From positions 1-64,000 of the forward strand of contig WANT01000030.1 in the NCBI GenBank assembly GCA_015521685.1: a stretch of DNA of 64,000 nucleotides, written 5' to 3'. The notes under the pieces are model-generated. The model made no database searches. It was not told the origin of the DNA and saw only the letters and a program-made list of their open reading frames with translations. Shown here piece by piece: positions 55,997-57,888 of this stretch. The first letter of the stretch is position 1, and each line of letters begins with the position of its first letter. This stretch comes from Aeropyrum sp. (GTDB taxonomy: Archaea > Thermoproteota > Thermoprotei_A > Sulfolobales > Acidilobaceae). Made by a program: the position numbers and the translations under genes.

Positions 55997-56497
55997 CTAG
56001 GGTTTGCCCGCAAACGCCCTAAGAGCTCCCTTAATAGTGCCTGAGGTCCTCAGAGGCACCACTAGCACCTCTCTTCCACCTGCCCTCCTCAGAAGCCCTA
56101 GTGCAGCTAATGCGTGATACTTGTACTCTCTCCTCACTTCCAATACCCCCCTCCCTGCCTTCTCGTCGTATTCTACAATCCTTAGCCTAGATACTGCCAG
56201 AGCCTTGAGCCCGAAGACCTCCTTGTATACTTTGCGAAGCGAGTGTTCTAGCTGGATCTTGTCGGGGGGTTTGTCATCCCTGGCGAGGACCTCGAAAGCT
56301 ATATATCTCTTCCTAGGCCTAGACCCCAGCCTTCTCCTAATTCTGGCCAGCTCTCGACTTCTAAACCCGGCCTCGCTTAGAGCTTCAAGAATCTTCAAGG
56401 CTTTGCCAGATGCTATCTTTGCGGCTGCGTAGCCGGCTAGCCCGCCCGATACAAACCCTGCTATTACGGCTGCGGTTAAAGCGGCCTCCACGTCCAT
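55997..56497 (-). CDS. rnp2: RNase P protein component 2 (Pop5) with N-terminal hydrophobic extension
   Basis: 166 residues. The Pop5 core starts near residue 60 (RPRKRYIAFEVLARD) and includes QLEHSLRKVYKEVFG and GVLEVRREYKYHALAALGLLRRAGGREVLVVPLRTSGTIKGALRA. Before it lies a Gly/Ala-rich hydrophobic stretch (about 5-30, TAAVIAGFVSGGLAGYAAA) that reads as a membrane helix or glycine zipper, unusual for an RNase P subunit. GAGGGG six bases before ATG 56497 supports this long start. A C/D box sRNA gene lies immediately upstream on the same strand. Confidence 0.88.
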   Translation of the reverse strand: MDVEAALTAAVIAGFVSGGLAGYAAAKIASGKALKILEALSEAGFRSRELARIRRRLGSRPRKRYIAFEVLARDDKPPDKIQLEHSLRKVYKEVFGLKALAVSRLRIVEYDEKAGRGVLEVRREYKYHALAALGLLRRAGGREVLVVPLRTSGTIKGALRAFAGKP

Positions 56498-56518: not shown

Positions 56519-56580
56519 GAGGTCAGATCGTCGTGAGACATTCATCCCTTCATTCTGGGACGGCGTCATCATCCCAGGTG
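56519..56580 (-). ncRNA. C/D box sRNA guiding 2'-O-methylation of 23S rRNA
   Basis: Read on the minus strand: box C ATGATGA (56572-56566), imperfect D' (CAGA), C' (GGATGAA) and box D CTGA (56526-56523), about 50 bases from C to D as in archaeal C/D sRNAs. The guide before box D contains TGTCTCACGACG, perfectly complementary to the universally conserved 23S rRNA stretch CGUCGUGAGACA, which ends at A2602 of the peptidyl-transferase centre. By the fifth-nucleotide rule the methylated residue is the U equivalent to E. coli U2593. A TATA-like box (56601-56610, minus) lies 26 bases before the expected 5' end. Confidence 0.75.
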
Positions 56581-56600
56581 AATCATGGGTAGTGTAGAGC

Positions 56601-56610
56601 GGGTTTAATG
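56601..56610 (-). promoter_or_regulatory. TATA box of the C/D box sRNA gene
   Basis: On the minus strand CATTAAACCC. Its centre is 26 bases from 56580, where the sRNA should begin a few bases before box C. Confidence 0.5.
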
Positions 56611-56649: not shown

Positions 56650-57888
56650 TTACTTTCCTGCGGTCGCGACTATCTTTATCACATCTCCATCCTTAAGGCT
56701 ATAGTTCTCCCCTACTCTTTGCCTCGTCTTAGCGTTTATCGCGTAGAGGAAGGTCTTGCCGAGGTCTGTGTGAATTCTGAACGCTAATTCTCTGGGGTTA
56801 GATCCCTTGGGCACTAAGAGGACGTCAGGCAGCACCCTCCCCTCCTTGTCGGTGTACTTGTTTGGATCTTCAACAGGATAGACTGCTATCATACCGAGCC
56901 TGTCGAACACAGCTGTGTTGATTGACTGAACTACCCCCGTGCTGCCCCAGAGCTTGAAGACCCTCTCCTCGATAAGCTTCAACGCGGACTTTGCCCTCCC
57001 ATCTAGGGCTTCAGGCTTGAGGACCTCGAATGACCCGTCGCCCGGTAAATACTTTATTACTCCTTTTCTCGCTAGCCTCCTCAGCATCGCCTCCGCAATA
57101 GCGCTGGTGGGAATCACTGGTATCTCGGGGAACCTCCCTCTAAGCGCCTTAATATTCTCCTCCGAGCCTGGAACGTCAGACTTATTCGCGACAATAACCA
57201 TAGGCTTCCCCCTATGCAAAGCCTCGGAGACGAAGAGCCTGAGGTCCTCGTCTCCCCAGGACGTGAGCCTCTTCTCCCCCAGACCTGTGGCCTCCAGGAC
57301 CTCAGCAACAATACTTCTAGGGATCTCGAAACCCGATACACGCTGGTGGAGCGCGCCCACGATATCACTTATGCCCCCCGTATCCACCCGCCTCGCAAAC
57401 CTCTCCCAATCCCTCCTCAGGCTTTCCACCATCCACTCTCTGATCTCGAGTATCATTGACTCCACTTCCTCCACAGGACTGTGGGAGCCGGGCTTTGACG
57501 GAACCCCCTCTGGGTCTGTAGATCCGCTGGCGTCGACTACTAGGAGCAGGGCGTCAGCCTTTCTAACATCGTCGAGAAACCTATTTCCCAGCCCCCTGCC
57601 CTTGTGAGCCCCGGGGACTAGGCCTGCTACGTCTAGAAGCTTGACAGGTATGTACCTCCAGCCCTCGAGGCATAGGCTGTTAACGGGGTCGCACTTGGGC
57701 AGGCCTAGGTCGACGTGGGCGCACTTTTTCCTAGCGTATGCTACACCCACGTTTGGCTCTATAGTGACGAAAGGCCTATTCTCGATCTTCACTGGCTGCT
57801 CAGTAGCCGCCGTGAAGAATGTTGACTTCCCGACGTTCGTCTTGCCCACTAGGCCTAGGACAACGCTTCCTGCCTCCACTAGAGGCAC
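56650..57888 (-). CDS. OLA1/YchF-like GTP-binding protein with TGS domain
   Basis: 412 residues, archaeal YchF-related Obg-family GTPase. G1 GKTNVGKST (about 15-23), G3 DVAGLVPGAHKGRGLGNRFL (about 85-104), G4 NKSDV (about 237) and a C-terminal TGS-like domain (about 335-412, ending LKDGDVIKIVATAGK). Proteins of this group bind ribosomes and tRNA. GTG or ATG start ambiguity near 57888. Co-directional with and 20 bases behind SBDS. Confidence 0.92.
   Translation of the reverse strand: MPLVEAGSVVLGLVGKTNVGKSTFFTAATEQPVKIENRPFVTIEPNVGVAYARKKCAHVDLGLPKCDPVNSLCLEGWRYIPVKLLDVAGLVPGAHKGRGLGNRFLDDVRKADALLLVVDASGSTDPEGVPSKPGSHSPVEEVESMILEIREWMVESLRRDWERFARRVDTGGISDIVGALHQRVSGFEIPRSIVAEVLEATGLGEKRLTSWGDEDLRLFVSEALHRGKPMVIVANKSDVPGSEENIKALRGRFPEIPVIPTSAIAEAMLRRLARKGVIKYLPGDGSFEVLKPEALDGRAKSALKLIEERVFKLWGSTGVVQSINTAVFDRLGMIAVYPVEDPNKYTDKEGRVLPDVLLVPKGSNPRELAFRIHTDLGKTFLYAINAKTRQRVGENYSLKDGDVIKIVATAGK

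Follow-up and report, generated by a model that had tools for sequence, protein, structure and literature searches.

The gap between an OLA1-like GTPase gene (56650-57888, with SBDS as its same-strand upstream neighbour) and rnp2 (55997-56497, Pfam Rpp14/Pop5) in the 64 kb stretch of DNA analysed here, the window, raises the question of whether it holds an RNA gene of its own and, if it does, which nucleotides of the ribosome that RNA would guide for modification. A preliminary description had proposed a C/D box sRNA gene with its own promoter and with one guide directed at 23S U2593 (E. coli numbering). The class and the mechanism of box C/D sRNAs are already known, and the boxes, their geometry and their comparative conservation bear out the assignment to this class. 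Judged from sequence comparison, the locus would be a double-guide box C/D sRNA gene, transcribed from its own TATA promoter and guiding the 2'-O-methylation of both U2593 and G2251, a reading to which we assign a probability of roughly 0.93.

Arrangement of the sRNA element

Read 5' to 3' on the minus strand, the element runs GGG-AUGAUGA-CGCCGUCCCAGA-AUGA-AGGG-AUGAAUG-UCUCACGACGAU-CUGA-CC (Table 1), that is, box C, a 12-nt D' guide, box D', a spacer, box C', a 12-nt D guide and box D, which is the standard archaeal arrangement. The terminal features of the class, a RUGAUGA-type box C, a CUGA box D and a GG/CC stem, are all present and conserved, and boxes C (ATGATGA, 56572-56566) and D (CTGA, 56526-56523) can be read directly on the minus strand where they had been placed beforehand. 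The internal boxes, D' AUGA and C' AUGAAUG, are degenerate, yet they align with the better copies of relatives.

Table 1. Features of the putative sRNA gene and the guide patterns of its family.
Feature	Position	Strand	Basis or remark
sRNA gene	about 56521-56576	minus	gap between the OLA1-like and rnp2 (Pop5) genes
TATA-like box ATTAAA (TTAAA 56608-56604)	56604..56609	minus	about 28 nt before the stem GGG
Terminal stem, 5' side, GGG	56573..56575	minus	GG kept in most close homologues
Box C AUGAUGA	56566..56572	minus	sequence; UGA(N)GA invariant in alignments A1 and A2
D' guide, 12 nt, CGCCGUCCCAGA	56554..56565	minus	pairs with 23S P-loop CUGGGGCGGC
Degenerate box D' AUGA	56550..56553	minus	alignment A1; several homologues have CUGA
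Box C' AUGAAUG (RUGANNN)	56539..56545	minus	spacing from RUGA to box D in homologues
D guide, 12 nt, UCUCACGACGAU	56527..56538	minus	pairs with 23S 2591-2600
Box D CUGA	56523..56526	minus	sequence; conserved in A1 and A2
Terminal stem (short), 3' side, CC	56521..56522	minus	sequence
Family guide patterns GCCGYYCCAG and CGCGACGA			

Loose C...D matches are common, with nine in the window against 3.85 expected, and the element might accordingly be taken for a C/D-like sequence that arose by chance. A regular expression for the canonical D'/C' geometry, however, finds a single match in the 64 kb window, at this locus, and none in 60 Markov-shuffled windows. Together with the two complementarities to the peptidyl-transferase centre (PTC) and the wide conservation described below, this geometry already contradicts a chance origin, the probability of which is negligible. 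A search against the Rfam covariance models of C/D RNAs, which the preliminary description had named as a check, gave nothing above gathering score, the best score being 14.5 bits where the cutoff is 37; the weak matches of the exact sRNA stretch (sR7, snoPyro_CD, GlsR4 and others) are all C/D snoRNAs. A literature search on the guide sequences returned nothing relevant, and no tRNA genes were found in the 64 kb window.

In isolated folding, the sequence CUGGGAU, lying before and within box C, can pair with GUCCCAG of the D' guide, and the resulting hairpin is the preferred fold (folding window 56555-56580, minus strand, z = -2.35). This hairpin of the 5' flank may compete with the exposure of the guide, and the binding of a k-turn protein would have to overcome it.

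The D guide and 23S U2593

The D guide UCUCACGACGAU forms 10 contiguous Watson-Crick pairs with 23S 2591-2600 and one further pair at 2589, and its A5 lies opposite U2593, which is the N+5 position. The numbering was checked on E. coli rrlB, where CGTCGTGAGACA corresponds to 23S 2591-2602; U2593 and A2602 are therefore correctly numbered. Comparative evidence adds to the case for U2593 as the target: an A stands opposite it in every D guide among the matches listed, a conservation that is, at positions 4-6 of the guide, partly by construction because the regular expression behind this survey fixed GAC there. The sequence-model matches given below (171/214 and 267/398) were also selected by similarity, but without the fixed GAC. 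In the cross-species table of PMC11542601 we noticed no modified equivalent of U2593.

Box C' had been given as GGATGAA, which is two bases off. The RUGA of C' lies at a constant 12 nt from box D in a 20-sequence alignment (A1) and in nearly all of alignment A2, and its invariant UGA therefore leaves a guide proper of 12 nt, with 10 contiguous pairs, and places C' at 56545-56539 (ATGAATG). The guide had also been described as a 12-base complement ending at A2602; the complementary stretch (TGTCTCACGACG, 56540-56529) and its numbering stand, but not all 12 bases are guide, as the additional TG, which pairs with C2601 and A2602, is part of C' and unconserved. A functional D guide reaching A2602 was consequently rejected, its final two bases belonging to C' and being variable.

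No LSU rRNA gene is assembled in the window's genome (68 contigs, about 97% complete), and the targets were therefore sought in the 23S genes of relatives, where both are intact in 18 genomes (two complete genomes of the same genus and 16 further). The genes for fibrillarin and Nop5 adjoin each other on contig C37 of the host genome.

Conservation across the order and the phylum

BLAST with the intergenic stretch found a core of about 55 nt in many relatives, the flanks of which do not align, and in A1 the UGA(N)GA of box C, the guide cores, the UGA of C' and box D are all kept. A strict pattern including TCTCACGACG had matched the window alone and would have implied no conservation, a reading that BLAST and the sequence models corrected. 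The first of these models (R1), built from 20 members, matches 171 of the 214 genomes of the order, so that the boxes are clearly conserved among relatives; a lack of such conservation had been set beforehand as a refuting result. A broader model (R2, with a cut-off of E <= 0.001) has matches in 267 of the 398 phylum genomes sampled; the sample was drawn by the search tool, and the count includes partial matches. Individual inspection covered 60 distant members of the order, 40 members of the phylum and 20 weak matches; the double guide is kept in most of the distant matches inspected while the flanks diverge, and some outlying families have a single guide. Some of the outer families carrying the sRNA may be ammonia oxidisers. 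In families f22 and f31 the U2593 guide is combined with a different D' guide, and in f6, f20, f37 and part of f14 it is the P-loop guide that remains, next to a different D guide; this is the re-pairing of guides already known for archaeal sRNAs from the text of a review (PMC7994747). By model matching in the order, several genera in the family to which the window belongs lack the sRNA. The sRNA family is widespread to an unusual degree, conservation having been measured for this family alone.

Several observations on neighbouring elements stand beside this picture. The neighbourhood of the sRNA and rnp2 (Pop5) is retained across families f1, f2, f4, f7, f9 and f11, although side and strand change. 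On a Methanomethylicota contig (L013, at about position 656), a P-loop guide AGCCGTCCCAG follows a C-box-like GGATGAAGA; the D guide of this element is unrelated, and it lies about 2.3 kb from the OLA1 gene of the contig. In related genera without this sRNA (L050, L053, L054, L005 and L006), another C/D sRNA-like element, GATGATGAAGAGACCGACCAGAGA...CTGA, is found near the OLA1-rnp2 gap; its D' guide forms 11 Watson-Crick pairs with AGGUCGGUCUCU, with N+5 at C2606, a site described as conserved in thermophiles in the text of PMC4644070.

Probable promoter of the sRNA

The TATA-like box from which a separate promoter had been proposed can be read in the window as TTAAA, and the family comparison lends it weight. 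When the family is aligned on UGAUGA, the A+T content reaches 0.76-0.86 in the stretch from about -34 to -28. The starts of TATA-like matches are concentrated at -36 to -33, where they greatly outnumber those in any other bin, and the peak persists (41 loose matches against a background of about four per bin) when family f11 is left out, whose TATA signal overlaps the apparent 3' end of a coding gene. The window's TTAAA lies 2-3 nt further upstream than this peak. The peak in the aligned sequences supports independent transcription, which would proceed on the minus strand from the sRNA's own TATA promoter; the review text describes about 20% of the C/D genes of archaea as independently transcribed (PMC7994747). 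A sigma-70 promoter scan was set aside as inapplicable to archaea.

The conserved element could instead be a leader or regulatory part of the mRNA of rnp2 or of OLA1-rnp2, for example an L7Ae-binding k-turn, and not a separate RNA gene. The element shares its strand with rnp2 and lies 24 nt upstream of that gene's start codon, and rnp2 adjoins it in many relatives, all of which fits this idea. Across genomes, however, the element is found upstream of rnp2 or downstream of it on either strand, or is no longer linked to it, while the boxes and both rRNA-complementary guides persist. This change of side and strand argues against an rnp2 leader element, for which complementarity to two PTC sites would moreover be needless, and we regard such a leader as highly improbable and a separate sRNA gene as the better account.

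The D' guide and the P-loop

The preliminary description was right in calling the D' box degenerate (ATGA), but the target of this half, which it had left unclear, is evidently the P-loop. The D' guide forms 10 pairs, one of them G:U, with CUGGGGCGGC (E. coli 2248-2257), and G2251, at the N+5 position, pairs with the fifth base ahead of D'; on this match, a D' guide without a target was rejected. The pair C:G2251 at N+5 is Watson-Crick in 138 of 138 distinct members. In E. coli G2251 is converted to Gm2251 by RlmB, and in yeast and mammals its methylation is snoRNA-guided (PMC7600485, PMC11121408); in the text of Dennis et al. (PMC4644070) G2251, alignment position G2520 there, is a predicted target in three of seven archaeal species.

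Given the degenerate D' and C' boxes and the G:U within the D' duplex, it can be argued that the D guide of a real C/D sRNA alone methylates and that the D' guide binds the P-loop merely as a folding clamp. The Watson-Crick pair at N+5 throughout the 138 members, a perfect CUGA D' box in several of them and the fact that G2251 is 2'-O-methylated in bacteria by RlmB, and in yeast and mammals with snoRNA guides (PMC7600485), speak against this, even though many members have degenerate D' and C', the D' guide is perfectly complementary in none, and guide pairs with one interaction thought to be non-productive are reported in the text of Dennis et al. (PMC4644070). A role of the D' guide as a clamp without methylation is thus unlikely, and methylation directed by both guides is preferred.

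Imperfect pairing with the P-loop

Perfect complementarity of the D' guide to the P-loop core occurs in 0 of the 138 distinct members, which were collected by similarity and come from related, non-independent genomes. Each of them has one or more G:U pairs or mismatches, usually a single G:U at G2252 or G2253, beside the target nucleotide. Nearly all of the 138 D' guides are GCCGUCCCAG or GCCGCUCCA(G/A), and in the few members with CC at both variable places the G:U falls at another position of the core. A scan with a pattern that permitted the perfect form gave 75 matches in 398 genomes, all UC or CU except two UU, with CC in none. The UC and CU forms coexist within one genus (g71, with CU in G187 and UC in G188), and the calculated duplex energies of the guide forms differ by 2-3 kcal/mol.

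The swapping of UC and CU even within a genus, with the perfect CC unseen, suggests that imperfect pairing may serve a tuned release from a very GC-rich target. It may be, at somewhat less than even odds, that this C/D sRNA is ancient and phylum-wide, that it links the P-loop with helix 93 in PTC assembly and that its P-loop guide has been selected to stay imperfect. The family lends itself to the question of why guide-target pairing stays imperfect.

Proposed function and significance

The sRNA would assemble with L7Ae, Nop5 and fibrillarin, its D guide directing 2'-O-methylation of U2593 in helix 93 of the 23S rRNA and its D' guide that of G2251 in the P-loop, helix 80. Some 340 nt of sequence separate the two sites; since both regions belong, by published description, to the P site of the peptidyl-transferase centre, the RNA may hold both segments together during large-subunit folding, a chaperone role in which it would join the P-loop and helix 93. 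That the double guide is kept in most of the sampled families of the phylum, among them lineages resembling ammonia oxidisers, suggests a role in a core step of ribosome assembly and not in an optional thermal adaptation, and G2251 and U2593 form a concrete methylation pair that is testable in model species.

Comparison with known guide RNAs and enzymes

The archaeal C/D sRNAs described in the texts of PMC4644070 and PMC7994747 are like this one in their C, D', C' and D boxes, 12-nt guides, N+5 rule and two rRNA targets, and in the PTC as a hotspot; in Table 3 of PMC4644070 the targets are likewise far apart in sequence. The combination of a G2251 guide with a U2593 guide is not mentioned in the text of either paper, and whereas archaeal guides are described there as fast-evolving and re-paired, in a variable repertoire, this sRNA is conserved across a phylum. 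Among eukaryotic snoRNAs, snR67 (yeast Gm2619) and U31 (human Gm4196) address the same target nucleotide with the same machinery (PMC7600485, PMC11121408), but the second guide of the eukaryotic G2251-guiding snoRNAs is another one, and homology is not claimed. In the Rfam consensus of GlsR4 a D' box follows, with identical spacing, a guide related to this one, ACGCCGCCCCAG, but that consensus pairs perfectly with the P-loop, which no archaeal member of the family does. RlmB of E. coli acts on the same predicted modification site, but as a stand-alone protein enzyme that uses no guide RNA.
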